From: a virus
IMG/VR virus record: IMGVR_UViG_3300021197_001935
Span: 1-34,512 of that record
DNA length: 34,512 nucleotides
Direction: 5' to 3' (one strand)
Shown: piece after piece, positions 1,902 to 34,512 of the stretch
Layout: every line of letters begins with the position of its first letter
Numbering within the stretch: position 1 is the stretch's first letter
The notes under the pieces: model-generated
Seen by the model: only the letters and a program-made list of their open reading frames with translations
The model's database searches: none
What the model was told of the DNA's origin: nothing
Translations under genes and position numbers: made by a program

Positions 1902-2335
1902 AACAACTACTATCCATATTTTTAGTTATACTCTTTGCTTTCCCTGCTTGGGCGCAAGAGGGAGTTATAACTGAAATACAGAAAGGCAAGCGAGCACCCT
2001 TCACGGGTGTTCTGTTGGATGCTAAAGCAGCAGCCAAAGTCCTAACTGATCAGAAATACACGGCAGAAGAGTGTAAGATAGAAATGGATAGAGAGATAGA
2101 AATATTAAAAGCCAAGTTAGAACTAGATCTCAAAATCAGCGAGATCAAACTAAACTCGGCAACTGACAAATACACAAATCTTCTCAGTATAAAAGACGAG
2201 GAGAACAAGCGACTACAGGAACTAGCACTTAGGAGACCAAACGATTATACCCACTGGTGGTTTGTCGGCGGCGTTATTGGCGGCGTGGTTTTGACGGTAG
2301 GTGTCTTTGTGGTTGCTGTGGGGATTACTAACTAA
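1898..2335 (+). CDS. exported coiled-coil protein with C-terminal membrane anchor
   Basis: The protein has 145 residues. Residues 1-19 form a classical signal peptide (MKQLLSIFLVILFAFPAWA) with a signal peptidase I site after AWA. There is no cysteine lipobox. Residues about 55-112 are charged and heptad-like (coiled coil). Residues about 121-143 (WWFVGGVIGGVVLTVGVFVVAVG) form a strong glycine-rich membrane helix. The mature protein would therefore be periplasmic and tethered by its C terminus. This topology resembles unimolecular spanins apart from the missing lipoprotein cysteine. It lies downstream of holin-like and i-spanin-like genes, so a lysis role is reasonable but inferred. Confidence 0.55.
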   Translation: MKQLLSIFLVILFAFPAWAQEGVITEIQKGKRAPFTGVLLDAKAAAKVLTDQKYTAEECKIEMDREIEILKAKLELDLKISEIKLNSATDKYTNLLSIKDEENKRLQELALRRPNDYTHWWFVGGVIGGVVLTVGVFVVAVGITN

Positions 2336-4171: not shown

Positions 4172-5746
4172 ATGTCATATCAATTAACAAAAAAAGAGAA
4201 ACTCAAAGAAATTGTTAAGTCTGGTAAAAATCCATCTTACTTTATAAATAACTATACCAAAATTTCACACCCCATTAGGGGTCAAATTCCATTCAAAACT
4301 TATGACTTCCAAGATCAGTTGTTGGAAGACTTTAATGATTATCGCTTTAACATCATATTAAAAGCAAGGCAGCTAGGCATTTCTACCATTACTGCTGGTT
4401 ATGTTGCTTGGATGATGCTTTTCCATAAAGACAAGAACATTCTTGTTATGGCTACCAAATTCCAGACAGCGGCAAATTTAGTCAAGAAAGTCAAAGCACT
4501 AATGAAAAACCTACCAGATTGGATGCAGATTGCCAGTATTGAAATTGACAATAGAACATCTTTCGAATTGAGTAACGGATCACAAATTAAAGCTTCTACA
4601 ACTTCTGGCGATGCTGGTCGTTCAGAAGCCCTGTCTCTCCTTGTTGTGGATGAGGCAGCGCATGTAGAGGGACTCGATGAACTCTGGACTGGTCTTTACC
4701 CTACCCTATCGACAGGTGGTCGCTGTATCGCTCTATCTACCCCAAATGGTGTGGGAAACTGGTTTCACCAAACATATATCGATTCCGAATTAGGCAACAA
4801 CGATTTTCATAACACCAATTTACCATGGGATGTACATCCAGATAGGGATGAGGAGTGGTTTGCAGAGGAGACTAAAAATATGTCTCGTAGGCAAATCGCG
4901 CAAGAGTATGAATGCAATTTTAATATGTCCGGAGAGACCGTTATTCATTCTGACGACATGCAGAGAATAAAAGATAATCTCGCAGAGCCAATTTACAGAA
5001 CAGGGTTTGATAGAAATTTCTGGATATGGGAAAAGTATAGTGCGGACTGCAAGTACCTTTTGGCAGCAGATGTATCTAGAGGGGATGATAGAGATTTTTC
5101 TGTGTTTCACATATTTAAATTGGAAACTATGGAGGTTGTGGCTGAATACAAATCAAGAATCACACCAGATTTGTTTGCTAGCATGTTAAATGATGTTGGT
5201 CGCGAATATGGAAGCTGTCTTATGGTCATTGAAAACAATTCTGTTGGATATGCTGTTTTGGACAAGTTAAGAGACATGTCTTACCCAAATTTGTATTATT
5301 CAATTAAGTCAACTCACGAATATGTTGAACAGTATCAGGGAGAAAATATGAGTAACGCCGTCGCAGGCTTCTCCATGACCTCCAAGACTAGACCACTTGT
5401 TATAGCAAAAATGGAAGAATTCATTAGAAATAAACTAGTTACAATATATTCTGCTAGACTATTTAGTGAGTTAGAAACATTTGTTTGGCACAACGGTCGA
5501 CCACAAGCTATGCGTATGTATAACGATGATCTTGTAATGTCTTTCGCCATAGGGTGCTGGGTTAGGGATACTGCTTTAGAAGTAAACCAAAGAGATATAG
5601 AATATGCTAAAGCGTTTTTGGGTTCCATAACAAGAGTCAAAACAGAAATAAATACAGCGATACCGGGACAGATTGGCTATAAACCCGTCGCAAAAAGTGA
5701 TAGAATAGAGGAACAACAAAAATATTCTTGGATATTAAAAGGATAA
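4172..5746 (+). CDS. gp17: terminase large subunit, gp17-like DNA packaging motor
   Basis: This 524-residue ATPase/nuclease pumps DNA into the prohead through the portal and cuts the concatemer. ATPase domain: Walker A-type segment KARQLGIST at residues 64-72, Walker B VVDEAAHV with Asp160-Glu161, and coupling motif ALSTPNG near residue 187. RNase H-like nuclease domain: Asp300 (LAADVSRGDD), Glu354 (MVIENNSVG) and Asp452/Asp453 (YNDDLVM), the acidic triad of T4 gp17. T4 gp17 is 610 residues, so this one is somewhat shorter. The Walker A lysine of T4 (SRQLGKTT) is replaced by Ile70. The portal gene follows after 3 bases. Confidence 0.96.
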   Translation: MSYQLTKKEKLKEIVKSGKNPSYFINNYTKISHPIRGQIPFKTYDFQDQLLEDFNDYRFNIILKARQLGISTITAGYVAWMMLFHKDKNILVMATKFQTAANLVKKVKALMKNLPDWMQIASIEIDNRTSFELSNGSQIKASTTSGDAGRSEALSLLVVDEAAHVEGLDELWTGLYPTLSTGGRCIALSTPNGVGNWFHQTYIDSELGNNDFHNTNLPWDVHPDRDEEWFAEETKNMSRRQIAQEYECNFNMSGETVIHSDDMQRIKDNLAEPIYRTGFDRNFWIWEKYSADCKYLLAADVSRGDDRDFSVFHIFKLETMEVVAEYKSRITPDLFASMLNDVGREYGSCLMVIENNSVGYAVLDKLRDMSYPNLYYSIKSTHEYVEQYQGENMSNAVAGFSMTSKTRPLVIAKMEEFIRNKLVTIYSARLFSELETFVWHNGRPQAMRMYNDDLVMSFAIGCWVRDTALEVNQRDIEYAKAFLGSITRVKTEINTAIPGQIGYKPVAKSDRIEEQQKYSWILKG

Positions 5747-5749
5747 AAA

Positions 5750-7720
5750 ATGGCTGATAGAAACAGAAACCCTAGAAATGAAGCGTCCCCCCTATTTAGG
5801 AGATTGACTAGATTATTATCTGGACCATTGGTAAATTATGACGCCCAAATGGTTGTTAGGAATTCAAGATCCGACACTGATAAATTCGCCTCCAAATTCA
5901 AATCCGCTAGCGGTCAACAATTTAAAAAAACAAGTTACAATCCCTTTTCTAACTTATCATCTGCGACCATGGCAAATGTCTCAAGAAGTCAAAGATATAT
6001 TGATTTTGATCAGATGGAGTATGAACCAATTATTGCATCCGCATTGGATATCTATGCAGATGAAATGACTACTTCATCTCACTTGAATCCCCTGCTTAGG
6101 ATACATTGCCCAAACGAAGAAATAAAATTGATACTCAACTCTTTGTATCACAATGTATTAAATGTGGAGCACAATCTTTTTAGTTGGTGCCGAACAATGT
6201 GTAAGTTTGGGGATTTTATGCTTTATCTTGACATTGAAGAGGCACAGGGGGTTATAAATGCCATAGGGTTGCCAACAAGGGAAGTGGAAAGATTAGAAGG
6301 TGAGGACAAGACAAATCCAAACTATATTCAATACCAATGGAACTCCGCAGGGATGACTTTTGAAAACTGGCAAATAGCACACTTTAGAGTTCTGGGTAAC
6401 GACAAGTTTGCGCCGTATGGAACATCAATCCTCGATCCAGCACGAAGAATATTTAGGCAACTGAGCTTATTAGAAGATGCGATGATGTCGTATCGAATCG
6501 TTAGATCTCCCGAACGAAGAGTATTTTATGTTGATGTCGGGGGAATTAATGCAAATGAAGTAGAACAGTATATGCAAAAAGTGGTCACACAGATGAAGCG
6601 TAATCAAGTTGTTGACGCGAACACTGGTCGTGTTGATCTTCGCTACAATCCGATGTCGGTCGATGAAGATTATTTTATTCCTACGCGAGCCGGACAATCG
6701 ACAAAGATTGAGACTTTGGCAGGTGGGCAATATACTGGTGACATTGAGGATGTAAAGTATCTCAAAGATAAGTTGTTTTCAGCATTAAAAATTCCTCAAT
6801 CTTATTTATTTAGGGGAGAAGGCGCAAATGAAGATCAGACAACCTTGGCTCAAAAAGATATTCGATTTGCCAGAACAATCCAGCGCCTCCAGAGGGCTGT
6901 TGTAACAGAATTGGAAAAAATAGGTATAATACACCTTTATACTTTAGGATATCGCGGCAATGATCTTATTTCCTTTAAGATGTCTCTGAATAATCCATCA
7001 AAAATAGCAGAACTACAAGAGTTGGAGCAGTGGAGAACCAAGTTTGATGTTGCTTCGGCAGCCTCCGAGGGTTTCTTTTCAAAGCGATGGATTGCCAATA
7101 ATCTGTTTAATATTTCTGAGGAAGAGTTTTTGAGAAACCAAAGGGAGATAGCATACGATAAGATTATGCTAGCCCAGTTCGATGTTCTGGATGCAGATGC
7201 AGGCTCCGGCGGCAGCGGCGGCGGCTTGGGGGGTGATCTTTTGGGAACTGGAGACGCCCTCGGAGACGATGATTTAGGAGACGCTCTCGCGGGAGATGAA
7301 GGGGATACAACAGGTCCAGAGGTCGCAGCGCCAGAAAGTCCAGAACCAGATGAACCCGAGGGGAACTTGTTGGCTGTGCCCGGAAAGCGAGATGACGACG
7401 ATGTTGTAAAAATGGCAGCTAAAGGTCGAAAGGGAAAGGTGTATACAACTACAAACAAATCTAAAGGAAAAATGTATGAGCCAAGAAATGATTTGTCCGG
7501 AAAGCGAGCAATTGCAAGATCTATGAAATCTATGGGTGGAATGAGGGGAATATCTGGACTTCCTCATGGCGCAAACGACATGAATAGGCTGGCGAGAGGT
7601 GTTTACACTGAAGAGCAATCTAATTATGATATGCAAGAACAACAAGTTCTTGAGCATAACAATGAAATTAAAAAACTAATAACAGAGTTGGAGACAAAGA
7701 AAGATGTCAAGCAAGATTAA
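5750..7720 (+). CDS. gp20: portal protein, gp20-like
   Basis: The portal forms the dodecameric ring at the unique head vertex, nucleates prohead assembly and docks the packaging motor. The 656-residue sequence has typical gp20 blocks: YIDFDQMEYEPIIASALDIY near residue 85, the FAPYGTSILDPARRI region near 222, and the wing/crown segment ALKIPQSYLFRGEGANEDQ near 345-363 followed by a long helix. It exceeds T4 gp20 (524 residues) mainly by a C-terminal extension from about residue 484: a Gly/Ser run, an acidic Gly/Asp/Pro stretch and then a basic, Lys/Arg/Gly-rich segment. The gene follows gp17 and overlaps the next gene by 17 bases. Confidence 0.95.
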   Translation: MADRNRNPRNEASPLFRRLTRLLSGPLVNYDAQMVVRNSRSDTDKFASKFKSASGQQFKKTSYNPFSNLSSATMANVSRSQRYIDFDQMEYEPIIASALDIYADEMTTSSHLNPLLRIHCPNEEIKLILNSLYHNVLNVEHNLFSWCRTMCKFGDFMLYLDIEEAQGVINAIGLPTREVERLEGEDKTNPNYIQYQWNSAGMTFENWQIAHFRVLGNDKFAPYGTSILDPARRIFRQLSLLEDAMMSYRIVRSPERRVFYVDVGGINANEVEQYMQKVVTQMKRNQVVDANTGRVDLRYNPMSVDEDYFIPTRAGQSTKIETLAGGQYTGDIEDVKYLKDKLFSALKIPQSYLFRGEGANEDQTTLAQKDIRFARTIQRLQRAVVTELEKIGIIHLYTLGYRGNDLISFKMSLNNPSKIAELQELEQWRTKFDVASAASEGFFSKRWIANNLFNISEEEFLRNQREIAYDKIMLAQFDVLDADAGSGGSGGGLGGDLLGTGDALGDDDLGDALAGDEGDTTGPEVAAPESPEPDEPEGNLLAVPGKRDDDDVVKMAAKGRKGKVYTTTNKSKGKMYEPRNDLSGKRAIARSMKSMGGMRGISGLPHGANDMNRLARGVYTEEQSNYDMQEQQVLEHNNEIKKLITELETKKDVKQD

Positions 7721-12316: not shown

Positions 12317-14806
12317 ATGGCTTATTTTACTGAATCTAGTTACGGTAAATATATCGAACTTCAGAATGTTTCTGGTTCTGGAGACCCGGCAGATGCCCCA
12401 ATTGGCGGTGCCTATCTTTTTTCTTCTGGTACATCCGCAGACCCTGCGGCTTCCAGACTTTACATGCAAAATCAAGGGGGCGTTGTTACCGACCTCGCTA
12501 AATCTCTTGACATCGATGCTTTTTCCGCTGGCACTAGCCTTCACCAAACACAAGATCACTTTGTCTTTTCCGACAACGGAACTGAGAAGAAGATCACTTT
12601 CTCTAACCTTCAAGACGCAGTTTTCGCTGATGTCTCTGGAGACGCAACCATCGCCGCAGGCGGTGCTTTAACTATCGCTGCTCAAGCAGTTGAAAACAGC
12701 ATGCTTGCTGACGACGCCGTTGGCGCTGATGAATTGGCTGCTAACGCTGTTGTCAATGCTTCTATTGCTTCTGACGCTGCAATTGACATGGACAAGCTTG
12801 ACGGTGGATCTTTGGCTTCATCTTTGAGTGACCTTGCACAAGGTGACTTGATGTATGCAGGTGATATTGATGATTCTAACAACCTTAAGTCAATCACCTT
12901 CTCTAACTTTGAAGACGCAATCTTCGGAAATGTTTCCGGTGATGCTACAATCGCTGCTGGTGGCGCTTTGACTATTGCCGCTCAAGCAGTTGAAAACAGC
13001 ATGCTTGCTGATGACGCTGTTGGTGCTGACGAGTTGGCTGCTAACGCTGTCGTTGAAGCTAGCATTGTTGACAACGCAGTCACTTTGGCTAAGATGGCAG
13101 GTATTACTAGAGGTTCTCTCATCTTGGGTGATGCATCTGGTGATCCTTCACTTCTTGGAAAAGGTACTGCTGCTCAATTCCTTCAGTCTGATGGAACTGA
13201 TCCGTCGTATGTATCAATCTCCGGTGACGCTACAGTTGCTGCTGGTGGTGCTTTGACAATCGGAACCGGCGTTGTTGAGCATGCAATGCTCGCTGCTGAT
13301 TGTGTCGATGGCGACAACATTCAAGATGATGTTGTTAACTCTGAACATCTTGCCGCCGGCGCAATTGACACTGAGCATCTTGCTGATAATCAAGTTACTT
13401 TGGCTAAGATGGCTGGATTGGCTGCTGCTAAGTTTATTCTTGGTAATAGCGATGGCGACCCTGCTGCTGTAACTATGAGCGGTGACGCAACTATGTCTAA
13501 CACTGGTGCTTTGACTATTGCTGCTGCTGCTGTTGAGCATGGTATGCTTGCTGAAGACATCATCTCTGGGCAAGCTGCTCTCGGCGGTGCAACCGTTGCT
13601 CAAGCTGACTTGTTGATGCTTGATGATGGACCGGGCGCTGTTAAGAAAGTCACATTCTCAAACTTTGAGGATTCACTCTTCGGAAATGTTTCCGGTGATG
13701 CCACTGTGGCTGCTGGTGGTGCTTTAACAATCGCTGCTGACGCTGTTGAAGGCTCAATGCTTAACGACAATGTTATTTCTGGTCAAACTGAATTGGCTCA
13801 CGCAGACATCGCTTCTGCTGACGAGTTGATGATCTCTGACGGTGGAACATTGAAGAAAGTTGGACTTGATAGTCTTCGCGATCACTACTACGGACAAGTT
13901 TCCGGTGATGCTACTATCGCTGACGGCGGTGCTTTGACTATTGCCGCTCAAGCAGTTGAAAACAGCATGCTTGCTGATGACGCTGTTGGTGCTGACGAGT
14001 TGGCTGCTGATGCTGTTGTCAACGCTTCTGTTGCTTCTAACGCTGCAATCGTGGCTACTAAGTTAAACTTCAATGTTGACTTTGGTGGAAATGTGCAGTT
14101 CGGTACCCAAACAGACGACGCAGTTGCCTTTGGTGGTTCGATCTCAGTCGGAAGTAATGTAATTGCTAACGCTCAGGGCGAAGCTACCATCAGTATGGAC
14201 AATGATCAGAATGTTGCAATTGCTGCTGCTGCTACCGTTGGTGGTGGATATGGCTCTTCTGGAGTTACTATGAGTGCTGCTGGTGCAATCAGCGCAGACG
14301 GAGCACTTACTATTGGTGCTGACGGCGCTGGTGTAAACGCTAAGTTCTTTGGTGGTGCTGCTAATGAGCACATGTCCTACGATGCTGGTAACCATGTTCT
14401 TTACTTTGTTAACGGATCTAGCGCTACTTTGCTGACTCTTGGTGGAGACGCCACTACTGAGTATGCACTTGATGTTGCTAACGGATCTGATAACATTAAC
14501 AAAGTTCGTGCTGCTGCATTCGTTACTTACTCGGACGAAAGCCTCAAGAGTGATGTTGCTACAATGAACACTGCGCTTGATACTGTTATGTCCTTGAATG
14601 GTGTTGAGTTCACTTGGAAAGATTCCGGTGAAAGAGACTTCGGTTTCATCGCTCAAGATGTTCAATCTGTTCTCCCAAAGGCAGTTCACACTGCTGATGA
14701 CGGAGTACAGGGAGTTGACTACTCAAGACTTACTTCGGTTCTCGTTGAGGCTGTAAAGGCTCAACAAGTTCAGATCGAAGAATTGAAAGCAATCCTCAAG
14801 AAGTAA
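12317..14806 (+). CDS. long repetitive tail/head fibre with S74 chaperone domain
   Basis: The protein has 829 residues. The GGGAGG site at 12303-12308 supports the ATG at 12317; the ATG at 12313 hits a stop after six codons. Six degenerate repeats begin SGDAT followed by GALTI and an AVExxML segment, at residues 107, 207, 302, 388, 459 and 529, with intervening segments such as KKVTFSNFED. Ala/Gly/Asp dominate. The C terminus (about 735-829) is an S74 intramolecular chaperone with Ser739 and Lys744 (SDESLK), then FTWKDSGERDFGFIAQDV and a final coiled coil. It would form a long trimeric fibre whose chaperone cuts itself off. Its place between protease and scaffold genes is unusual for a fibre; host recognition is the likely role. 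Confidence 0.85.
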   Translation: MAYFTESSYGKYIELQNVSGSGDPADAPIGGAYLFSSGTSADPAASRLYMQNQGGVVTDLAKSLDIDAFSAGTSLHQTQDHFVFSDNGTEKKITFSNLQDAVFADVSGDATIAAGGALTIAAQAVENSMLADDAVGADELAANAVVNASIASDAAIDMDKLDGGSLASSLSDLAQGDLMYAGDIDDSNNLKSITFSNFEDAIFGNVSGDATIAAGGALTIAAQAVENSMLADDAVGADELAANAVVEASIVDNAVTLAKMAGITRGSLILGDASGDPSLLGKGTAAQFLQSDGTDPSYVSISGDATVAAGGALTIGTGVVEHAMLAADCVDGDNIQDDVVNSEHLAAGAIDTEHLADNQVTLAKMAGLAAAKFILGNSDGDPAAVTMSGDATMSNTGALTIAAAAVEHGMLAEDIISGQAALGGATVAQADLLMLDDGPGAVKKVTFSNFEDSLFGNVSGDATVAAGGALTIAADAVEGSMLNDNVISGQTELAHADIASADELMISDGGTLKKVGLDSLRDHYYGQVSGDATIADGGALTIAAQAVENSMLADDAVGADELAADAVVNASVASNAAIVATKLNFNVDFGGNVQFGTQTDDAVAFGGSISVGSNVIANAQGEATISMDNDQNVAIAAAATVGGGYGSSGVTMSAAGAISADGALTIGADGAGVNAKFFGGAANEHMSYDAGNHVLYFVNGSSATLLTLGGDATTEYALDVANGSDNINKVRAAAFVTYSDESLKSDVATMNTALDTVMSLNGVEFTWKDSGERDFGFIAQDVQSVLPKAVHTADDGVQGVDYSRLTSVLVEAVKAQQVQIEELKAILKK
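12965..13042 (+). repeat. 78-bp perfect direct repeat, copy 1 (fibre gene)
   Basis: This segment is identical to 13931-14008, 966 bp downstream in the same frame. It encodes the core ALTIAAQAVENSMLADDAVG plus ADELAA. A third, diverged copy lies at about 12665-12742 and differs at synonymous positions. Confidence 0.9.
13931..14008 (+). repeat. 78-bp perfect direct repeat, copy 2 (fibre gene)
   Basis: Identical at nucleotide level to 12965-13042. Other repeat units in the gene agree in protein but differ in synonymous bases, so this pair is likely a recent duplication or gene conversion. Confidence 0.9.
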
Positions 14807-16269: not shown

Positions 16270-18099
16270 ATGTCAGTTTTAGAAAAATTAACAGAAGGTA
16301 TCGTTAATAGAGATCTCCAGAAGGAAGGTGCTGCCCTACTTGCGAAGTGGGAAAACACAGGTCTTCTAGAGGGAATGAATAGCGAGCGTTCTAAAGACGC
16401 CATGGCTCGATTGCTTGAAAACCAAGCTAAAGAGTTGTTGCGTGAGGCATCCACTATGGCTAGTGGAGATGTCGAAGGTTTTGCATCTGTTGCATTTCCA
16501 ATCGTTCGTCGCGTTTTCGGAAGCTTGATCGCTAACGATCTCGTAAGCGTTCAACCAATGAGCCTACCATCAGGACTTATTTTCTTCCTTGACTTCACAT
16601 ATGCTGAAACTAAAGCAGCAGGTGGTGCAGTTCTTGGAGAATCACTTTACGGACAAGGTAAAGTCGGTCTTGAAATCACAGGAGGTGTTGACCTTGACAA
16701 TAAGTTGAACGGCGGAACATCAGCTAACCCTAGTGCTACACAAAATCCAGAAAAAGGATTCTATGGGCTTAACAACGGTTATGCTTCACCTACCGCATCC
16801 AACACCTGTTCAGTCAACCACCTAACAAAGGTGGTAACTGGTGTTTATCCGGGAGATGAAGCTACTAACATTAATAAGCTAGCATTATACGATGTTGACA
16901 TTCCAAGTGGATCTCTTGTCGCGGTATACACAATGGCTAGAAGCACTCTTACTGGTTCTAATGATGGTGGTATTACCAGCAATGGAACTCAATTCAACGA
17001 AGATAATTACCTCGCATTGGATTTCAAACCACCCAACGAGGCAGGAACTGTTGCAGGACCAGCTGGGGTTCTTCAAAGAAGATTAACTCATGTGTCCGAA
17101 ACAGATAGCACCAAGCTAAACCTTGTTTTCATGGCAACAGCGTCTTCGGATGCATCCGCAGCAACACATTTGGATGCTAACATTGTTAAGGTAGGAGGAA
17201 CTCTTTCCTTTGCTCTCGAAGATAACTTCAATGGTACTGCCACTGCTCCAGCAGCAGACGCTATGGGAGTCATCGCAGGTACCGATTCTTGGGGACTTGA
17301 AAATAACGAAAACATCCCAGAAATCGACATCAAAGTTGATTCGATTGCTGTGACTGCTGTGACCAAGAAGCTCAAGGCTAAGTGGACACCAGAATTAGGT
17401 CAAGACCTTAATGCTTACCACAACCTTGATGCAGAAGTTGAGCTTACAAGCATCCTTTCTGAGCAAATTGCTTTGGAAATCGATAGAGAAATCCTTAAGG
17501 ATCTTGTTGCAGGCGCAACTGCTGGTAAACTTTACTGGTCTCGTCGTCCGGGTAGATTCCTTGACAGATCCACTGGTGGACAGATTGGAGTTATTGGCGG
17601 AGTTTCCCGTGACAATGAATCCTTGATGGGTGCTGACTTTACTGGTACTGTTTCCGAATGGTACGAGACTCTTGTCGAAACCATCAATGATGTTTCTGCT
17701 CAAATCCACAGAAAGACACTCCGTGGTGGTGCTAATTTCGTCGTCGTTTCGCCGGAAATTGCCAACATCCTTGAGTTCACTGCTGGATTCCGCGCTAGTG
17801 TAACTGCTGATGCCGATAGAGGCACAGTTGGTGCAGTTAATGTTGGATCGTTGAGCAAGAAGTGGGACATTTATGTTGATCCTTACTTCCCACGAAATGT
17901 TGTTCTTGTGGGTAGAAAAGGTGGTTCATTCCTTGAGAGCGGATATGTTTACGCTCCATATGTACCGCTTCAGGTAACTCCAACTATCTTTGGTGTCGAG
18001 GACTTTGTACCTCGTAAGGGTGTCATGACCCGTTATGCTAAGAAGATGGTTAGACCAGATATGTATGGTCTTGTTATCTGTCGTGACCTTAACGGCTAA
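16270..18099 (+). CDS. gp23: major capsid protein precursor, gp23-like
   Basis: This 609-residue HK97-fold capsid protein forms the hexamers of the head shell. The N-terminal propeptide (MSVLEKLTEG to about residue 59) ends in LLREAS; LRE|A at residues 57-60 matches the gp21 cleavage rule, so maturation probably occurs after Glu59. Immediately downstream come VAFPIVRRVFGSLIANDLVS and VQPMSLPSGLIFFLDF, hallmark gp23 blocks. The C-terminal domain has KKWDIYVDPYFPRNVVLVGRKG and the end ARK-like KKMVRPDMYGLVICRDL. T4 gp23 has 521 residues, so surface insertions are likely, for example in the 150-330 region. GGAG site ideal; terminator follows. Confidence 0.97.
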   Translation: MSVLEKLTEGIVNRDLQKEGAALLAKWENTGLLEGMNSERSKDAMARLLENQAKELLREASTMASGDVEGFASVAFPIVRRVFGSLIANDLVSVQPMSLPSGLIFFLDFTYAETKAAGGAVLGESLYGQGKVGLEITGGVDLDNKLNGGTSANPSATQNPEKGFYGLNNGYASPTASNTCSVNHLTKVVTGVYPGDEATNINKLALYDVDIPSGSLVAVYTMARSTLTGSNDGGITSNGTQFNEDNYLALDFKPPNEAGTVAGPAGVLQRRLTHVSETDSTKLNLVFMATASSDASAATHLDANIVKVGGTLSFALEDNFNGTATAPAADAMGVIAGTDSWGLENNENIPEIDIKVDSIAVTAVTKKLKAKWTPELGQDLNAYHNLDAEVELTSILSEQIALEIDREILKDLVAGATAGKLYWSRRPGRFLDRSTGGQIGVIGGVSRDNESLMGADFTGTVSEWYETLVETINDVSAQIHRKTLRGGANFVVVSPEIANILEFTAGFRASVTADADRGTVGAVNVGSLSKKWDIYVDPYFPRNVVLVGRKGGSFLESGYVYAPYVPLQVTPTIFGVEDFVPRKGVMTRYAKKMVRPDMYGLVICRDLNG

Positions 18100-21044: not shown

Positions 21045-24000
21045 ATGTCAGCAAAGAATTTTAAGTTTGTTTCCCCCGGCGTTTTTATCAAGGAAATTGA
21101 TAATTCGCAGCTGCCGAAAACAGCGCCTCCAGTCGGACCAGTAGTCATTGGTCGCTTTAGAAGAGGACCAGCTTTTCTACCAACAAGGGTAGAATCTTTG
21201 TCAGAGCTAATCGAAATCTTCGGTGAGCCTGTAAGAGGAGACATAGCGTCTGATGTTTGGAGAGGTGGCATCCCAACAGCTCCAACCTACGGCGCTTATG
21301 CAGCCGCAGCATGGTTAAAAAACGGCGCACCATTAACAGTTGTAAGAATATTGGGAGATCAAGATCCTCAAGCATCTTACTCATCAGCCGCCCCAGACTC
21401 CACCGCTGGATGGGCAATGGGGACTACGCCTTCGAATAGTGAAGACTCAGGTGGGGCGTATGGTCTTTTCTTGATAAATTCCTCCTCCTACGCTGCGGGA
21501 GCAACAGGTTCCGCTGACGGAGTTTTGGCTGCATCATGGTACTTAAAGCAGGGAGGAATTATTCTTTCTGGCACGATTGCGGGGGCAGCCACCGATGTTG
21601 TATCCGGATCCGGAGTGCTGATAGAATCAACAACCGCCAGCTCCCCCGCAGGAGCAAAATTCACCGCGTTGATGTACAAGGAAGGCGCGGTCGGTCTCGG
21701 AACCCCAGACGAGGTTTTTACTTTTAATTTTGATAAAGATTCAAAATATTTTGCCAGAAAAGTTTTTAATACAAACCCAACAACAACAAATTCGTCTCTT
21801 ATTTCGAGCAACGCATCTACAAAAAATTACTTTTTGGGAGAAACCTTTGAAACAGCAGTGAGAAGCACTTTGTCTGGGACAAAGTGTTATGGTGTTATAT
21901 TGCCGTTGGGGGATAGCGCCGGCGCAAAAGCAGGGCAAAAGTTTAAAAAAGCAGCGAATGCAGCACAAACTGGCTGGTTTATCGCACAAGACATGAGAAC
22001 GACTGAAGGTATAGAGCCTGAGACTGGTGGAACTCAAAATCAATTAACCCCTACATATAATCCGGAAAACACAGCGATTTGCGCTCGATTGTTCAAATTC
22101 TATACTCTAAGTGCAGGACAAGAAGAACAGCGTTCTTTCAAAATATCTATTGAAAATGTTAACTATTCCAAGAGAACAGATGTTAATGCATACGGAAGTT
22201 TTTCTGTTGTAATTAGATCACTATTTGATAGCGACAATGCTCCTAAGATCATTGAGAGATATGACAATTGTAATTTAAATCCAAATTCATCAAATTATGT
22301 CGCCCGAAAAATCGGAGATCAGTATTATGAGTGGGACAATTCAAAGAAAAGATTAATCGAGTATGGTACTTATCGTAACAACTCCAGAATTGTAAGAATT
22401 CAAATGGCTTCCGAGGTTGACTTGGGGCAAGCAAATTCAGAATTGTTGCCGTTTGGTGCTCAGGGACCAGTTAAGAGAGAATCGTTCAGACTCAAATTTA
22501 ACTCAGGCTCCGCTGGGGTCTCCGCAGCAGCTACCGTTTTTGCTACCGCGTCATTTCAGTCTCATACATCTTCTTGGGGAGATATAGATATTGATCTTGC
22601 GAAACTAAATGTTAGAAGATCGCCATCCGACTCCTACAAGTGGTTTGATCAAGCAGCAGGGGCTGCCCCTAATGATGCTGTTGTCTGGGGTGGAGGACTT
22701 ATTGGCGCTAATGCTGCTACAGTTGTGATTGCTGCATCTAACGCACCCACTAACGGCAATCAGATCACTATTCGAACAACGGATGGATCATCGCAACAGT
22801 TTACCTGCACCAACACCACTACCGATGCCACCCAATTTGGTCGCGACGGCAGCAAGGATGGCATAGATAATTTAAAGACAGCTATTGAAGCTAGCTCTAT
22901 TGCGAGCAAAGTGACGGTAAGTAGTGTTTCGACAGCGCCATTTACCATAACAATCACGCAAAATGTTGCTGGGGTATTTGGTAACACAACAGTTACATCT
23001 AATTGTACAGACTGGACTGTTGCAGGAGGTTCAGCTGCTGCTGATGGAGACTTCGCAGGGGGTACCGACCTCAACCCAGCGCCCGGTCAAGGAACATGGC
23101 AAGCAACAGTTAAGTTCCCGGATGTCTTTGTTAGGGACGCTGCAAGTGATGGCAATCTGAGTGATCCAACCTTGGCTTACTTCGGATTTAGCACTACTAG
23201 TGGATCCACAAGTACTTCGTTTGAACAAAGTAACTTGGACCTATTAAGGGCGATGCCATCTGATTACGATAATTTTTCCACGAACGAGTACACAAAAAGA
23301 ATGTTTGTGTTTTCATTGGATGATCTTTCGTCATCGGCAGGAGGAGCGTATTCATATGTATCTGGATCCAGAGCATCAGGTCTTTCCCATACAGCCAGAA
23401 ATGGATCATATAGAGACATTATTGATGCAGGATATGACAGGTTCACTGTTCCGCTTTTCGGAGGCTTCGATGGACTCGATGTTCAAGAGGCGGAACCTTT
23501 TAATAATGAAAGGGCTCTTAGGGCAGACGCTACAGCGGAAACATACGCTATGTACTATTCCGTTAAAAAAGCTATTGATATCCTAGCAGATCCAGAATTT
23601 GTAGAAATGAATTTAGTAGCTTCTCCGGGCATCACAAATGAGACTTTAACTCAACATCTCGTTAACACTTGCGAAGATCGCGGAGATGCTCTAGCTATTA
23701 TCGACCCCAAAGGTGGATATAAGGCAGCGTCTGAGCAAGCAGGCACCGAGGCTAGTAGAATTTCAACAAATCATGTTAATGAGGTTGTAACAAACATGCA
23801 ACAACGAGGAATGAATTCAAGCTATGGATGTACTTACTATCCATGGGTGAGAATCAACGATGATATCGGTGGCGGCTCACTGTGGGTACCTCCATCTGTA
23901 GCAGCTATCGGGACAATGGCATATTCAGAACAGCAAAAAGCTGTTTGGTTCGCACCAGCTGGCTTTAGCAGGGGAGGCTTAAGTCGCGGCGCGGCTGGTT

Positions 24001-24464
24001 TCCCAGTAACGAATGTTAGATCGAAGCTTACATCTGCCGAGAGAGATGAACTTTATGATGTCAATATCAACCCAATTGCTTCTTTCCCAAGTGAGGGTAT
24101 AGTAGTGTTTGGTCAAAAGACGCTTCAAGTTACGCCATCCGCCTTGGACAGAATTAATGTTCGAAGATTGATGATCTTTGTGAAAAAACAAGTTTCAAGA
24201 ATTGCGGCGAACCTGTTGTTTGAACAGAATGTTGATGCTACTTGGGACAGATTCAAAGCTCAAGTCGATCCATTCTTAAGCAATATTAAGACAGCATTCG
24301 GATTATCAGAATTTAAAGTGGTCCTTGATGAATCGACAACAACACCAGAATTGGTAGACAGAAACATCATGTATGCTAAGATTTTCTTAAAACCAGCAAG
24401 AGCAATCGAATACATTGCAATTGATTTTAACATTACAAACACTGGTGCAAGTTTCGACGACTAA
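21045..24464 (+). CDS. gp18: tail sheath protein, gp18-like, with large insertions
   Basis: This is the contractile sheath subunit. The N terminus is diagnostic (FVSPGVFIKEIDNSQLP, then VGPVVIGRFRRGPAF), and so is the C-terminal core: ALAIIDPKGGY near residue 884, YYPWVRINDD near 930, the FSRGGLSRGAAGFPVTN block, TLQVTPSALDRINVRRLMIFVKK and a final IDFNITNTG. In T4 the protein has 659 residues; this one has 1139. The extra length is in the middle, including a Thr/Ala/Gly-rich beta domain at about residues 545-680 (QITIRTTDGSSQQFTCTN, FTITITQNVAG, FAGGTDLN), which resembles domains found inserted in other phage virion proteins. Consensus GAAGGAGA site. Confidence 0.96.
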   Translation: MSAKNFKFVSPGVFIKEIDNSQLPKTAPPVGPVVIGRFRRGPAFLPTRVESLSELIEIFGEPVRGDIASDVWRGGIPTAPTYGAYAAAAWLKNGAPLTVVRILGDQDPQASYSSAAPDSTAGWAMGTTPSNSEDSGGAYGLFLINSSSYAAGATGSADGVLAASWYLKQGGIILSGTIAGAATDVVSGSGVLIESTTASSPAGAKFTALMYKEGAVGLGTPDEVFTFNFDKDSKYFARKVFNTNPTTTNSSLISSNASTKNYFLGETFETAVRSTLSGTKCYGVILPLGDSAGAKAGQKFKKAANAAQTGWFIAQDMRTTEGIEPETGGTQNQLTPTYNPENTAICARLFKFYTLSAGQEEQRSFKISIENVNYSKRTDVNAYGSFSVVIRSLFDSDNAPKIIERYDNCNLNPNSSNYVARKIGDQYYEWDNSKKRLIEYGTYRNNSRIVRIQMASEVDLGQANSELLPFGAQGPVKRESFRLKFNSGSAGVSAAATVFATASFQSHTSSWGDIDIDLAKLNVRRSPSDSYKWFDQAAGAAPNDAVVWGGGLIGANAATVVIAASNAPTNGNQITIRTTDGSSQQFTCTNTTTDATQFGRDGSKDGIDNLKTAIEASSIASKVTVSSVSTAPFTITITQNVAGVFGNTTVTSNCTDWTVAGGSAAADGDFAGGTDLNPAPGQGTWQATVKFPDVFVRDAASDGNLSDPTLAYFGFSTTSGSTSTSFEQSNLDLLRAMPSDYDNFSTNEYTKRMFVFSLDDLSSSAGGAYSYVSGSRASGLSHTARNGSYRDIIDAGYDRFTVPLFGGFDGLDVQEAEPFNNERALRADATAETYAMYYSVKKAIDILADPEFVEMNLVASPGITNETLTQHLVNTCEDRGDALAIIDPKGGYKAASEQAGTEASRISTNHVNEVVTNMQQRGMNSSYGCTYYPWVRINDDIGGGSLWVPPSVAAIGTMAYSEQQKAVWFAPAGFSRGGLSRGAAGFPVTNVRSKLTSAERDELYDVNINPIASFPSEGIVVFGQKTLQVTPSALDRINVRRLMIFVKKQVSRIAANLLFEQNVDATWDRFKAQVDPFLSNIKTAFGLSEFKVVLDESTTTPELVDRNIMYAKIFLKPARAIEYIAIDFNITNTGASFDD

Positions 24465-24528: not shown

Positions 24529-25137
24529 ATGCCTATTTATGGAGACAGCCTAAATACAGATAGCTTCTGGTCAAATCCGACGAGTGAGCCAAAAAGAAAA
24601 TATAGATTTACTTTTAATATCGCAGGACTCCCAGTTTGGACAATCACAAAGGTTAACAGACCAAGTTTCAAAATGACTGAAACTTCACATGTTTTTTATA
24701 ATCACAAATTCAATTATCCGGGAAGATTAGAGTGGGATCCACTTACCTTTACAACTGTAGACCCCATCAGTCCTGATGCGACAGGTATATTGATGAAAAT
24801 GGTTTATGCTTCTGGATATGAATTCCCTGACAAACAATTTGGCGGAACTGCGTATTCCTTTAATTCACTAAATAAGGTAGATTCTATTGACGCTCTTAAC
24901 CCTGTAACAATCAACGCTTTTGATGCCGAAGGTGTCAATGTCGAAAAGTGGACTCTCAAAAACGCTTACATCTCAGCAGTTAACATGGGAGAATTTGCAT
25001 ATGATAATAATGAAATGCTAACAATGGATGTAACATTGACATATGATTGGGCAACCATTGAGAAGATGGGCGACAGAGCAACATTCCAAACTAGCTTAGA
25101 TAAGCCAGAAATTCCAAACTCAGTAATTGAGCCTTAA
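24529..25137 (+). CDS. gp19: tail tube protein, gp19-like
   Basis: This 202-residue protein forms the stacked hexameric rings of the inner tail tube. The family signature is clear: RKYRFTFNIAGLPVWTITKV, RPSFKMTETSHVFYNHKFNY, then PGRLEWDPLTFTTVDPI with a WD-P-LT motif, VNVEKWTLKNAYISAVNMGE, and MLTMDVTLTYDWATI at the end of the domain. T4 gp19 has 163 residues; the extra length includes a C-terminal tail (ATFQTSLDKPEIPNSVIEP). It directly follows the sheath gene, as in T4. Confidence 0.95.
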   Translation: MPIYGDSLNTDSFWSNPTSEPKRKYRFTFNIAGLPVWTITKVNRPSFKMTETSHVFYNHKFNYPGRLEWDPLTFTTVDPISPDATGILMKMVYASGYEFPDKQFGGTAYSFNSLNKVDSIDALNPVTINAFDAEGVNVEKWTLKNAYISAVNMGEFAYDNNEMLTMDVTLTYDWATIEKMGDRATFQTSLDKPEIPNSVIEP

Positions 25138-25203: not shown

Positions 25204-26082
25204 ATGTCCGAAAGAAATAATTTAGATCGAATGGCTAGTCCAAGCCCAGATCCAACACAGGGCACTGTTCCACAGGTCCAACCCCCTCCCCCACAACAGG
25301 CACAGGGACTTCAATTCACTGTACCTACAGAATTTGTAGACTTGCCATCAAAAGGCAAGTATTACCCAGAGGGTCATCCCCTAAAAGACAAGACTTCAAT
25401 TGAAATAAAATTTATGACGGCTAAGGAAGAGGATGTACTCGCTTCTACAGTATTGATCAAAAAAGGTATAGTTTTCGACAGGCTATTGCAGTCAATTCTT
25501 GTTGACAGGATCGACCCAAACGATCTTTTAATAGGAGATAAGAATGCTATTCTTGTGGCTACTCGAATAAATGGGTATGGGCATGAATACCAAACAGAGG
25601 TTAAGTGTCCTGCGTGTTCTAATACTTCAAAATTTTCTTTTGATTTGTCCGACTTGAAAACAAGAGTGACTTCTAATGAAGACTATAAGCAAGACATGGG
25701 TGTCGTTGAAACTGAAAGGGGAACATTCAAAATTCACCTGAAAAGGATAGATAAAACTGTAGAAGTTAAGCCAATGACTGGGCACGATGAGAAGCGCCTG
25801 ACTTATATGATAAATGCGAAATCAAAAAATAACATGGAAGAATCATTGGTTACAGATACATTAAAGTCTTATGTTGTCTCCGTAGATGGAGAAACCAGCA
25901 GAAATACCATAAACTCCTTCATCGATTCCCTTCCAGCAAGAGAATCTAGAACTCTTAGAACTGCTTATAAGCATGTTGTGCCAAGGGTCGAAATTTTAAG
26001 CCACTACTCCTGCGCTAGCTGCGCTCACGAACAGGAATTGGAGGTACCGCTTAACACTGACTTTTTTTGGCCTAACGAATGA
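25204..26082 (+). CDS. gp26: gp26-like baseplate hub / tail assembly protein
   Basis: The protein has 292 residues. A Pro/Gln-rich N terminus (about 12-36, disordered) is followed by FVDLPSKGKYYPEGHPLKDK, then IEIKFMTAKEEDVLASTVLI and FDRLLQSILVDRIDPNDLLI, the conserved core of proteins named gp26 in marine T4-like phages. Two CxxC pairs (C135-x2-C138 and C270-x2-C273) probably bind zinc. In T4, gp26 and gp51 assist hub assembly. Position between tube and tape-measure genes is that of two-frame tail assembly chaperones in other tailed phages. The ORF ends DFFWPNE on a seven-T run from which a second frame continues (see 26123-26254). Confidence 0.75.
   Translation: MSERNNLDRMASPSPDPTQGTVPQVQPPPPQQAQGLQFTVPTEFVDLPSKGKYYPEGHPLKDKTSIEIKFMTAKEEDVLASTVLIKKGIVFDRLLQSILVDRIDPNDLLIGDKNAILVATRINGYGHEYQTEVKCPACSNTSKFSFDLSDLKTRVTSNEDYKQDMGVVETERGTFKIHLKRIDKTVEVKPMTGHDEKRLTYMINAKSKNNMEESLVTDTLKSYVVSVDGETSRNTINSFIDSLPARESRTLRTAYKHVVPRVEILSHYSCASCAHEQELEVPLNTDFFWPNE
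26061..26070 (+). other. candidate frameshift site (seven T)
   Basis: The gp26-like ORF reads GAC TTT TTT TGG and stops four codons later. Moving +1 or -2 within the T-run opens an uninterrupted 61-codon frame encoding a coherent sequence beginning GLTNEYIESVYEEIF. The -1 frame stops at once (TAA at 26073). The site is a candidate only. Confidence 0.45.
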
Positions 26083-29947: not shown

Positions 29948-32119
29948 ATGAGTTCGAAATCGAAACCATCCAACAAATACTCAGATCAGAGCGTACTTAT
30001 GGCTTGTCTGCCATTTATTTTATTAAGTTCAAAATATCATTTTGAACATCCTCCAAAATTTTACATAAGATCAGATAACACTGAGCACTCAACAGCCCCA
30101 CCAGCGCGACTTGATATGCCAAGTGAAAAAGATTTGCGGAGCATTCTAAAGGTAAACAACATTGATTTGGCATCGGTGGTTCCCAAGATAGAATTTTATA
30201 AAATTTACAGGACTGACTCCGGGGTGAAGGAGGTCTACATACCATATGCTTATGACGCTAGAAAGTATGCCGAAAATATATATGGCAACAAAGAACAAAG
30301 AGGAGACGATGTTGGAATCAAGGGCGTATCTTTTGTGTACGATGAGCAAAACCCTGCCGTAGCTGAAACTTTGTTGGGATGTACGATTGATTTTGTATTT
30401 GCAAATGCAGAAGCTTTAGTTACAAAGCGAAACGCCGGATTCAGGTTCGCCGATCTTTTTTCTTTCCCAAATACAAAATCGAGCGAGATAGTAGACAAAG
30501 GCAAATATGACATAGTGTTACGAGTGGGCTACCAATTGGATGGGGTAACTGATGTATTATCTGCTGACATTAGTGATGCATTAAAAAAACAAGATAGACT
30601 CATAGAGCTTACAATGACTGATTATGATTTAACTTTTAGTCCAAATGGAATGTTAAATGTTTCTGTGCAATACAGGAGTGCCAATATTAACTTTTTTTCT
30701 GCGAAAAAAAATGAAATCTTTGGCGCAAAAGCTTTAACTAAAATTAAGCCTCTCCCCGTTGCAGACACGAAGGCTAAACAATCCGAACCACCAGAGGACC
30801 CTAGCGACCTTACGCTGGATGAAATTCTGGACCCAACTGAGGAAGCACCCGAGGACAGCAAGCCAGCTGTTGATCTTCAGGCTCTATATTCTCGCTTGCA
30901 AACCTACATGGCTGAAAATTGTATGATACAAAAAATGGACGCAAGCCTCGCGGACCTAGTAGCAGAGGGGCAATATTATTTTAGCACAAATCCTTGCAAG
31001 GCAAGCGGTCAACAGAATAATCTAAAGGAGGAATTGTCTGGTCAAATGATCCAAGCCGGGTCCCCTTCCTCTGAAGTAGAAGAAATGTTGCAGAGGTTTA
31101 CAAAAAATGATTATGAGGGCAAAAGAACAATCACCTATTTTTATTTTGGCGATTTAATAGATGCATTGTTGGCTACTAATCCAGAGTTGGTAGAAGAAAT
31201 GAAAAAAAGAAAGTTTTTTATTTTACTTGATAATGTGGGCTACCAGTTTATTAAGGGAAAGCCAATATCTGTTTTCAATGTCGCAAAATTACCAATAGCC
31301 CAGTCTGTTTTCAATGAATGGTTTTCTAAGAGTATAATGGGGCAAGAAAAAAAAATTGTTTCCTTGATGAGCTTTATGAAGGTATATATAATGAATTTTG
31401 CTCTAGGACTTTTGAGGGTTCGAACACAAGACCAAATAGGGTCGGATTATACACCTAACCTAGTTAGAAGACTAATCAGTCTTCCATATCGCATCCCCAC
31501 CCACGAGATTGCGCTCCACAACGGCAGGAGCACCGCCATCGGAGGGAAAACTAAATTATCTCCTGTTAAGGGAAGGTCTTTTTATGCTAAAAATGTAGGA
31601 TCCTCCTATCATGAATATTATACAATTTATGATGAAACCTACTACAACGACCAATTGTCAGAGCGCATGACTAATATAGGTGATGCTGATAGATATTTTT
31701 TTAATTTGGTTGAAGGAATTCCTCATTTTTATATTGGTGCAGATAAGGGTCTGCTTAAAGAGTTTAGCTTTCAAAAATCTTCACTAGGGGAAGAAATATC
31801 TGTCATAAGAAATCTGGAGCCGGGAAACCCATATCAAGAATTATGGACCATATTCGACATCAGCGCAACTTTTATTGGCAATAACTTGATGACAGTTGGC
31901 AAAAACATTTATATGGATCCGTCTATAACAGGTCTTGGCTCTCCTCTTAAAAAAGGCACCGTTGCGAATATCATGGGCTTGGGAGGATATTACATGGTTA
32001 CGAGAGTTGAACACAATTATTACCCGACATGGACAACAAGTATTACGGGGATGTGCATAGTTCCAGCTAGCCAAAAAGCTTCTCACAGCTCTAAAGGCGC
32101 AGTATTTACATATTTTTAG
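29948..32119 (+). CDS. large baseplate hub-like protein
   Basis: The protein has 723 residues. The N-terminal part (about 70-260) has VVPKIEFYKIY, a VYIPYAYD strand and DLTFSPNGMLNVSVQYRS, an immunoglobulin/beta-like region. A long acidic linker (about 275-315) is followed by a helical region. The C terminus (about 600-710) has GIPHFYIGADKGLLKEFSFQ, ISATFIGNNLMTVGKNIYMD and LGGYYMVTRVEHNYYPTWTT, reading like the distal part of hub proteins of the gp27/gpD type, in which a beta domain is followed by a final strand pair with Tyr-Val and a conserved His. Its place after a LysM protein also fits. The exact T4 counterpart is uncertain. Confidence 0.5.
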   Translation: MSSKSKPSNKYSDQSVLMACLPFILLSSKYHFEHPPKFYIRSDNTEHSTAPPARLDMPSEKDLRSILKVNNIDLASVVPKIEFYKIYRTDSGVKEVYIPYAYDARKYAENIYGNKEQRGDDVGIKGVSFVYDEQNPAVAETLLGCTIDFVFANAEALVTKRNAGFRFADLFSFPNTKSSEIVDKGKYDIVLRVGYQLDGVTDVLSADISDALKKQDRLIELTMTDYDLTFSPNGMLNVSVQYRSANINFFSAKKNEIFGAKALTKIKPLPVADTKAKQSEPPEDPSDLTLDEILDPTEEAPEDSKPAVDLQALYSRLQTYMAENCMIQKMDASLADLVAEGQYYFSTNPCKASGQQNNLKEELSGQMIQAGSPSSEVEEMLQRFTKNDYEGKRTITYFYFGDLIDALLATNPELVEEMKKRKFFILLDNVGYQFIKGKPISVFNVAKLPIAQSVFNEWFSKSIMGQEKKIVSLMSFMKVYIMNFALGLLRVRTQDQIGSDYTPNLVRRLISLPYRIPTHEIALHNGRSTAIGGKTKLSPVKGRSFYAKNVGSSYHEYYTIYDETYYNDQLSERMTNIGDADRYFFNLVEGIPHFYIGADKGLLKEFSFQKSSLGEEISVIRNLEPGNPYQELWTIFDISATFIGNNLMTVGKNIYMDPSITGLGSPLKKGTVANIMGLGGYYMVTRVEHNYYPTWTTSITGMCIVPASQKASHSSKGAVFTYF

Positions 32120-32129
32120 GAGCAATTAG

Positions 32130-33308
32130 ATGGCAGAAATTAAATATGAGGGAATAGAGATTAAAAATAGCCTCGGCGCAGGGGCAAAAAATGTTTTTGA
32201 CATTAGAAAGACTTATGATGAGGTCTTTCCCGCAATTGTTGGCACTTACGATTTTAATCAGCAAGACAATTTGTTTTACGGAAGAGTAGATCTTGATGGA
32301 GATATAGTTCATGCAAACGAATATTACTTGAAGGAAGTCGCCACCCCTAGAGATGAAGAGGTTTTATGCATGAACTTTGTAGCCGATGCATACGAAGACT
32401 TCAGGTATGCTGTAAAGACGCAATACTTTAATAGGCTTAAGCCAGATGATTTCTTAACTACAGAATGGGAAGCAGAAAAAGGATGGGAATCTCCTCATAG
32501 CTTTTATGATAATAAGATGAGCGATATAAATCAAGTTTTCGTGAAGGGCAATTTGTTTTTCAAAAATAACAAGGACCTAATAAAGAATATAGATGATTTT
32601 TTAAAAATATTTTTCAATGATTTCTATCATAGCGCAAATGGTGTGATGCCGCTAACAAAAAGTGGAGTGTTGTCTTCAAAATTTTACAACCCTTCCAGCA
32701 CTGGGATGTGTATTGAGATATCAAAAGCCAGCACATCACTAGAATCTGTTAAATTTAACACATTTATAAAGAGCCCAAATTTTGAATTTTATTTGTTAAC
32801 TGCTGCCAAACATGGATTCATTGTAGATAAAAATGCTCCATGGAGATTGATAGCCAATCTTAATTCTCCACAAATGCACAAATACATGGCTCTATATAAT
32901 TTAGACAATAGTAATGTTTTTGAAACTTGTTTTGTTAAAACACATATCTATGACATAGAAAATTTAAAAATTTATATGAGGCAAATGTATAACTACTTTC
33001 TGTCTATTTCTCCAGTCTATATGGAAAAGCAAGCCGTATACGATAATCAAAAATGTCCTGCCGATCAGCAATTGGATAAAGTGGTTGTGCAAAGAGAGCC
33101 TCTCGATGTGGACTATTACAATTTAAAATATGGTGATATTTTTTGGCTCAAATTATATTACAGATTGAAATTATTTGAAAAAAAAATACAGCAATCGACT
33201 AGTCTTTTGTCTAGGGAGGTGGCAAAGATAGAACAAATTTATAATTCTCTTGACTTTGAACAAACTTTAGATTATATTAATAAAAGAATTAAATCACAAG
33301 CTAGTTGA
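32130..33308 (+). CDS. hypothetical protein, baseplate/virion operon
   Basis: This 392-residue protein has a good TAGGAG site. It is mixed alpha/beta, aromatic-rich (many Phe/Tyr), with blocks YDEVFPAIVGTYDF near 29-42, NFVADAYEDFRYAVKTQYFN near 82-101, FNTFIKSPNFEFYLL near 210-225 and APWRLIANLNSPQMHKYM near 236-253. The C-terminal 60 residues are helical and charged, coiled-coil-like. It is the last gene of the tail series, separated from the polymerase-like gene by seven bases. I do not recognise the family and no enzymatic motif is evident. A structural role is possible by context only. Confidence 0.6.
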   Translation: MAEIKYEGIEIKNSLGAGAKNVFDIRKTYDEVFPAIVGTYDFNQQDNLFYGRVDLDGDIVHANEYYLKEVATPRDEEVLCMNFVADAYEDFRYAVKTQYFNRLKPDDFLTTEWEAEKGWESPHSFYDNKMSDINQVFVKGNLFFKNNKDLIKNIDDFLKIFFNDFYHSANGVMPLTKSGVLSSKFYNPSSTGMCIEISKASTSLESVKFNTFIKSPNFEFYLLTAAKHGFIVDKNAPWRLIANLNSPQMHKYMALYNLDNSNVFETCFVKTHIYDIENLKIYMRQMYNYFLSISPVYMEKQAVYDNQKCPADQQLDKVVVQREPLDVDYYNLKYGDIFWLKLYYRLKLFEKKIQQSTSLLSREVAKIEQIYNSLDFEQTLDYINKRIKSQAS

Positions 33309-33315
33309 GTTAAAT

Positions 33316-34506
33316 TTGTTATTTCAAGCTTTAGATGATAAAGAATACTGCGTCGGCATTTACCTAGATGGCAAGATGGTGTACGACCATATTCCGTCTA
33401 ATTTGACCAAAACTTGGTCATATTCATCATTTTTGGAAGATAAAGAGGTAGAATTTGCCGAGATCTACGCCAAAGGTAAGAACTTAACAGAGATCTGCCC
33501 ACCGCAGCACAAAGAAGAGTTAGCTTTGGCTTGGAAGAAGATGTCGGCATTCTACAAGTCTTTTACGATTGCCAAAATAGACCTAAACCAAAACTGTTTC
33601 TTCGACCTCCTACCAGAGCAATTCGTTAAAGATTTTTGCGAGGTTAAAAACAAGATCACGCAGCATGTCTTTGATAACTACCAAAGACCCGACAACTATG
33701 AACTACAACAGAAAATCGTATCTATCACCGCAGAAATATCCAATCAAAAACTAAATGTAGACCTAGATCCACTCAAGGAATCTTTCGAGAATCCAAGAAC
33801 AAGGGAGTTCTTTAAAAGATTTAAAGCAGCCACCCCATATGTAAACTACAATCCATATGGTACCAAGACGGGCAGGCTCACAACCAGAAAGAATTCATTT
33901 CCCATACTCACTATGGACAAAAGGTTTCGCAAGGTCCTCCAGCCAAACAACGATATGTTTGTGGAGTTGGATTATAATGCGGCCGAACTAAGGGTTCTAA
34001 TCGGGCTGCTTGGTATGCCTCAACCAGATGAAGATATTCATGACTGGAACATTAAGAATCTCTACGAGGGAAGTGTCGGTAGAGAGCAGGCAAAGAAGAA
34101 TATCTTTTCATGGCTTTATAATCCTAATTCCAAGGACAAAGCCTTAGACAAGCACTATGACAGAAAGAAGGTCATGAATAAATATTGGGACGGTAAGTGC
34201 GTAAAAAACTACTACAAAAGAGAAATAGAAAGCGATGAGTATCACTCGCTGAACTATATCATTCAAAGCACATGTAGCGACTTAATTATGAACAGGGCTT
34301 TTTTGATCAAGGAGAGGTTGCGAGATCTAAAATCAAACATAGCATTTATTATTCATGATAGTGTTGTTTTAGATCTTGACAAAGGGGACTTAAGTATGAT
34401 AAACCATATGGTCAAGGAGTTTTCAAACACTCCTTTTGGCACATTTAAAGTTAATGTGTCGGCAGGAAAGAACTTTGGAGAGATGAAAGAATTATGTATA
34501 CAATAG
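33316..34506 (+). CDS. compact family A DNA polymerase-like protein
   Basis: The protein has 396 residues from a TTG start; upstream in frame there is a TAG at 33268-33270 and no ATG, and the first in-frame ATG (33376) would remove conserved-looking sequence. Residues about 176-396 carry the family A palm and fingers: T185-G-R-L (E. coli PolI TGRL region), motif A L218-D-Y-N-A-A-E-L-R226 (Asp219, Glu224), D-x-H at 240-242, the O-helix R256-x3-K260-x3-F264-x3-Y268 with exact PolI spacing, IQSTCSD at 316-322, and motif C H347-D348-S349 (PolI has HDE). No 3'-5' exonuclease is visible; residues 1-170 are unassigned. T4 itself uses a family B polymerase. Confidence 0.85.
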   Translation: MLFQALDDKEYCVGIYLDGKMVYDHIPSNLTKTWSYSSFLEDKEVEFAEIYAKGKNLTEICPPQHKEELALAWKKMSAFYKSFTIAKIDLNQNCFFDLLPEQFVKDFCEVKNKITQHVFDNYQRPDNYELQQKIVSITAEISNQKLNVDLDPLKESFENPRTREFFKRFKAATPYVNYNPYGTKTGRLTTRKNSFPILTMDKRFRKVLQPNNDMFVELDYNAAELRVLIGLLGMPQPDEDIHDWNIKNLYEGSVGREQAKKNIFSWLYNPNSKDKALDKHYDRKKVMNKYWDGKCVKNYYKREIESDEYHSLNYIIQSTCSDLIMNRAFLIKERLRDLKSNIAFIIHDSVVLDLDKGDLSMINHMVKEFSNTPFGTFKVNVSAGKNFGEMKELCIQ

Positions 34507-34512
34507 TGGGAC

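Follow-up and report, generated by a model that had tools for sequence, protein, structure and literature searches.

The stretch of DNA analysed here (the window, 34,512 bases) is the whole of one IMG/VR record and represents a fragment of a genome. Its features are collected in Table 1. The preliminary description had placed a compact family A DNA polymerase-like gene next to a T4-like structural module, and this attachment was borne out by the terminase large subunit, portal, major head, tail sheath, tail tube and baseplate hub genes found upstream; the phage is a marine one and only a distant relative of T4. The phrog_23 profile has 496 positions, and the tail sheath protein, at about double this length, may contain large inserted domains. 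Tail-fibre-type genes at positions 2335-3243 and 12317-14806 of the window have C-terminal families in common (phrog_8215 and others).

Table 1. Positions of the structural genes, the compact polymerase and its motifs in the window.
Feature	Position	Strand	Evidence
Terminase large subunit	4172..5746	+	
T4-type portal protein (phrog_213)	5750..7720	+	
T4-type major head protein (phrog_138)	16270..18099	+	
Tail sheath protein, enlarged, 1139 aa (phrog_23)	21045..24464	+	
Tail tube protein	24529..25137	+	
T4-type baseplate hub subunit (PF12322, phrog_150)	25204..26082	+	
723-aa protein ending the tail module; precedes PolA in most relatives	29948..32119	+	
392-aa protein directly upstream of the polymerase, fast-evolving; also upstream of PolA in relatives	32130..33308	+	
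Compact family A DNA polymerase, 396 aa, TTG start	33316..34506	+	ORF, Pfam, PHROG, orthologues, AlphaFold2, Foldseek, profile alignment, relatives
N-terminal region, residues 1-170	33316..33825	+	AlphaFold2; alignment of residues 94-170; Pfam
T185-G186-R187-L188 motif (R668 region of Klenow)	33868..33879	+	Profile alignment; no variation in TGR among 47 relatives
Motif A, VELDYNAAELR, with catalytic Asp219 (=D705) and Glu224 (=E710)	33961..33993	+	Profile alignment, 47 relatives
O-helix, R256-x3-K260-x3-F264-x3-Y268 (=R754, K758, F762, Y766)	34081..34119	+	Profile alignment, 47 relatives
Gln317 (=Q849)	34264..34266	+	Profile alignment, 47 relatives
Motif C, His347-Asp348-Ser349 (=H881-D882-E883), third residue variable	34354..34362	+	Alignment, relatives, other phage PolAs
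Start of next gene (280 aa in relatives), 13-bp overlap with polymerase stop, cut by window end	34494..34512	+	

The polymerase ORF of 396 codons is intact. Its TTG start at 33316 is correct, because the orthologues begin at the homologous residue and many of them use ATG there. The protein matched Pfam DNA_pol_A (PF00476) with E = 2.3e-13 (50.3 bits against a gathering score of 34.3) and PHROG_17 with E = 1e-14, and gave no match to PF00136, the T4 gp43-type family. Among the closest relatives, dN/dS was 0.05-0.10 in both the N-terminal and the core halves, which indicates a real gene. The ORF was thus confirmed to encode a predicted family A DNA polymerase, one on which purifying selection is strong.

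In a profile alignment with a Klenow-led set of full-size Pol A enzymes (E = 1.1e-19, residues 171-387), each of the motif residues had the Klenow equivalent given in Table 1. The positions T185-G186-R187, D219, E224, R226, R256, K260, Q317, H347 and D348 do not vary in 47 diverse relatives, and F264 and Y268 were each present in 46 of the 47. The polymerase A landmarks and the O-helix spacing recognised in the preliminary description therefore stand, in register with Klenow. Two features that it had singled out proved to be ordinary. Phe264 corresponds to F762 of E. coli and is the usual bacterial and phage state, the Tyr of T7 being the exception in the compared set. The third residue of motif C was Ser in 33 of the relatives, Glu in 9, Ala in 3 and Asn in 2, and HDS is also found in Staphylococcus and SPO1-type (Herelleviridae) phage PolA enzymes.

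The AlphaFold2 model of the compact polymerase, obtained with a 47-row alignment, had a pLDDT of 93.5 and a pTM of 0.90 from 47 diverse sequences; with 10 mostly near-identical ones the pLDDT was 57. Foldseek matches of the model in the PDB included the apicoplast polymerase, Bst, Klenow, Taq and human Pol nu (E-values of 1e-13 to 1e-11), and Pol theta was also among them. The TMq values of ~0.6 with high rmsd would fit a conserved core whose peripheral parts differ from enzyme to enzyme. The confident model, the Pol I-type matches and the Klenow-register aspartates all point to the right-hand palm/fingers fold, with D219 and D348 predicted to lie in a common active site. The palm and fingers are shorter than in Klenow, as had been claimed, with 129 residues between D219 and D348 versus 177 between D705 and D882.

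The N-terminal region of 170 residues, formerly left unassigned, folds confidently in the model. Residues 1-60 make up a small beta-rich part and are followed by long helices at residues 63-85, 101-121 and 128-142, which may occupy the place of the thumb. Residues 94-170 can be aligned with the compact PolA enzymes of uncultured phage LR756508, Flavobacterium phage immuto and Microcystis phage Mel-JY01. No 3'-5' exonuclease domain (PF01612-type) was matched by Pfam in the 396-aa protein, in agreement with the earlier reading of the sequence. A 5'-3' exonuclease is not fused at the N-terminus either; in relatives it has a gene of its own (PF02739) within the cassette. A separately encoded 3'-5' exonuclease had also been suggested. 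The PolA-type PF01612 exonuclease was not found in three long marine genomes and, among the genomes searched, occurred only in the other, full-size PolA of immuto; an RNase_T exonuclease was present in one of the three long marine genomes.

Only 6 bases of the window follow the polymerase stop. In relatives, the compact polymerase is followed by a ~280-aa protein, a gp32-type SSB, RecA/UvsX, a 5'-3' flap-type exonuclease and a DnaB-type helicase, and in the close relative L006 the same order continues to ribonucleotide reductase. The orthologues in one of the long marine genomes (G001) carry the domains gp32 (PF08804), RecA (PF00154), 5_3_exonuc_N (PF02739) and DnaB_C (PF03796). When 78 marine loci were compared, with only those having enough sequence counted for each gene, the order was kept for the next gene in 72/72, SSB in 60/60, RecA in 44/44, exonuclease in 28/28 and helicase in 21/22.

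The ~280-aa gene (L006:11179-12021) often overlaps the polymerase stop by 4-16 bp in relatives, and its product has an N-terminal GLGxxG motif in register with FtsZ. The Tubulin/FtsZ match in Pfam was weak and limited to one member (E = 0.0086), and comparison with E. coli FtsZ by hhalign was not significant, with some landmarks in register. No match to this product was found among solved structures. In the divergent relative L011, a gene that looks by eye like a hotdog thioesterase takes the place of the usual ~280-aa neighbour. The compact PolA, the next gene, SSB and part of RecA were also present in CP070664, the chromosome of a WOR-3 MAG. We do not trust a WOR-3 host assignment on this basis; the RecA match stops partway, so the locus is probably phage sequence inside the MAG.

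Because the window is a fragment, it is the relatives that decide between a replicative and an accessory reading of the polymerase. Three relatives on contigs of 185-191 kb each encode a single PolA, no family B polymerase and a full DnaE-type (family C) polymerase. The catalytic Asp triad of E. coli DnaE is kept in all three, and the DnaE of G001 has the PHP, NTPase, finger and HHH domains. Within the 40 marine records, DnaE was found in all 12 contigs having at least 13.7 kb downstream of the compact polymerase, and in none of those with less. It lies 12.4-25.7 kb downstream of PolA in 11 of the 12 (one of the 12, G037, has the start of a DnaE domain alone, at the contig edge), and in G003, the twelfth, PolA and DnaE are connected by way of the contig ends, in the manner of a circularly permuted genome. 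Family B polymerase (PF00136; gp43), which the preliminary description had proposed to look for elsewhere in the genome, was absent from all 40 marine records.

The window record and its relatives of at least 85% identity have at most 11.2 kb downstream and end before the position of DnaE, so the enzyme would be expected in the window's own species by extension from the other marine phages. A search with a 306-aa gene of L006 for contigs of the window clade that reach DnaE returned the same contig alone. No recognisable bacterial beta clamp was found in the marine genomes, which leaves the replisome of DnaE incompletely accounted for. Directly upstream of the phage DnaE in G001 are genes of 293 and 242 aa with no Pfam or PHROG match (L108:11300-12906).

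Homologues of the compact PolA in immuto (QQO91919, 441 aa), LR756508 (452 aa) and Mel-JY01 (WWT39333, 408 aa) are located at the same site, between the tail module and an SSB-RecA-5'exo-DnaB cassette like that of the marine relatives. Each of these phages has another polymerase. Immuto encodes immuto35A_71, an additional full-size PolA of 777 aa with its own 3'-5' exonuclease, and Mel-JY01 a family B polymerase with exonuclease and clamp-loader genes. In LR756508 there are matches to family B and one DnaE-like match, so this phage may have three DNA polymerases. Its family B matches extend across two long ORFs, split or interrupted, and the DnaE-like match is separate (LR756508 (W02) 260623-266900, 47415-48068). 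In the Mel-JY01 record (PP395634; 50397-51623, 55792-56832), the compact PolA is annotated as hypothetical, whereas the name "DNA polymerase I" is given to the 5'-3' exonuclease.

The window polymerase shares only 18-22% identity with the enzymes of these three phages. The profiles of the marine and the immuto/LR756508/Mel-JY01 groups nevertheless matched with E = 2.8e-21 over residues 94-393, and in a tree all compact enzymes fell on one side of a 99/98-supported branch, opposite the full-size PolAs (a small tree of 20 rows, in which T7 and immuto71 are long branches). The immuto/LR756508/Mel-JY01 branch keeps both aspartates and the equivalents of K758, F762, Y766 and Q849, and replaces E224 by H, R256 by Y, H347 by Y and S349 by A. 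Activity could differ in this branch, as the equivalents of E710, R754 and H881 are among the residues replaced. The N-terminus of the LR756508 compact enzyme weakly resembles a degenerate 3'-5' exonuclease.

Two roles had been offered in the preliminary description, a second, specialised polymerase and a replicative replacement with a separate exonuclease, and the relatives support the former and not the latter. The compact enzyme is accompanied by DnaE in all 12 testable marine relatives, by family B polymerase in Mel-JY01 and LR756508 and by full-size family A polymerase in immuto, and is not the sole polymerase in any of these genomes (the genome represented by the window is incomplete). 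Since its neighbours in relatives are genes of repair and recombination, and a different, full-size polymerase is encoded there as well, it is probably accessory in this T4-like phage lineage and not the replicase, being reduced to a minimal family A enzyme with palm, fingers and a reduced thumb. Such an enzyme would bind primer ends on SSB-coated DNA and fill short gaps, and the 5'-3' exonuclease, made from its own gene, would clear RNA primers or flaps from its path. Jointly, the two genes would supply both parts of bacterial Pol I, for Okazaki-fragment maturation and repair. In addition or instead, the compact polymerase may extend 3' ends after strand invasion by RecA/UvsX, and bulk synthesis would be left to DnaE. 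The enzyme would thus be like bacterial Pol I in function and not in architecture, as both nuclease domains are absent. Sequence cannot decide among gap filling, recombination synthesis and lesion bypass as its putative role.

The compact gene adjoins those for SSB, RecA, DnaB-type helicase and ribonucleotide reductase, and phage replicases often adjoin such replication genes. Together with the lack of gp43 in the marine records, this could be taken to mean that a family A enzyme has replaced gp43 as the replicative polymerase, with proofreading in trans. We regard this as highly improbable given the second polymerases of the marine and the three other phages, the compact fold without an exonuclease and the lack of PF01612 in the three long marine genomes. 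Sharing of the fork with the replicase, for example primer extension on one strand followed by hand-off to DnaE, would suit the DnaB-type helicase and SSB of the cassette. Forks with two polymerases, PolC and DnaE, are known in Firmicutes (see also PMC3814617) and provide a precedent. The phage DnaE, however, belongs to another gene group at a distance of 12-26 kb, and such a division of labour is improbable. A translesion or error-prone polymerase similar to Pol theta or Pol nu, acting in damage bypass or in the extension of recombination intermediates, is plausible in several respects: there is no proofreading domain, the cassette includes RecA/UvsX and SSB, Pol nu and Pol theta are among the structural matches, and the third residue of motif C is variable. 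We nevertheless consider it unlikely, as the O-helix and motif A follow the canonical pattern of accurate Pol I enzymes (fidelity itself cannot be read from sequence), and the 5' nuclease of the cassette suits gap filling at least equally well.

Compared with known systems, the compact polymerase shares with bacterial Pol I/Klenow (PF00476) the catalytic motifs, the O-helix spacing and the Q849 and H881-D882 positions, and as in bacteria it is accompanied by a 5'-3' exonuclease and a DnaE replicase. It differs in having no 3'-5' exonuclease domain, in the location of the 5' nuclease on a separate gene and in a motif C whose third residue is usually Ser. In Far-T4/RM378-type phages, too, a capsid and tail of the T4 kind go together with a divergent replication module (PMC4360716). 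RM378 was considered as a precedent for a split family A enzyme and rejected; its split polymerase belongs to family B (PF00136 and a separate PolB exonuclease) and is unrelated to the compact polymerase.

A survey of virioplankton PolA, which distinguishes classes by residue 762 and its neighbours, includes Phe762-type PolA near DnaB helicase and RNR genes, as found here; its accessible text describes no exonuclease-less compact PolA paired with DnaE (PMC6302109). T4-like phages with two polymerases of different families are represented by jumbo-phage group 2.2, which has family B and a split Pol III core, whereas here a compact family A enzyme accompanies a full DnaE, or family B or A (PMC7824862). 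In marine jumbo phages, a DNA pol III alpha domain is reported in about half of the large cluster PGC_A (PMC9123017). No earlier description of a compact second polymerase was found in the passages covered, with subscription papers mostly outside their range.

On balance, we lean towards regarding the compact enzymes as a distinct minimal family A subfamily that serves a broad group of T4-like phages as their constant helper polymerase. It would be tied to one syntenic recombination cassette while the replicase varies among families A, B and C, and would include the immuto/LR756508/Mel-JY01 branch with its altered active site and retained aspartates. The window polymerase is simple, a family A enzyme of 396 residues that lacks an exonuclease and whose fold is predicted with confidence, and it has homologues in two cultured phages, immuto and Mel-JY01. 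Descriptions of phage replication modules usually name a single polymerase. In the phages compared here, the small second polymerase varies less than the replicase, suggesting that large T4-like phages conserve gap filling or recombination-coupled synthesis as a function in its own right.
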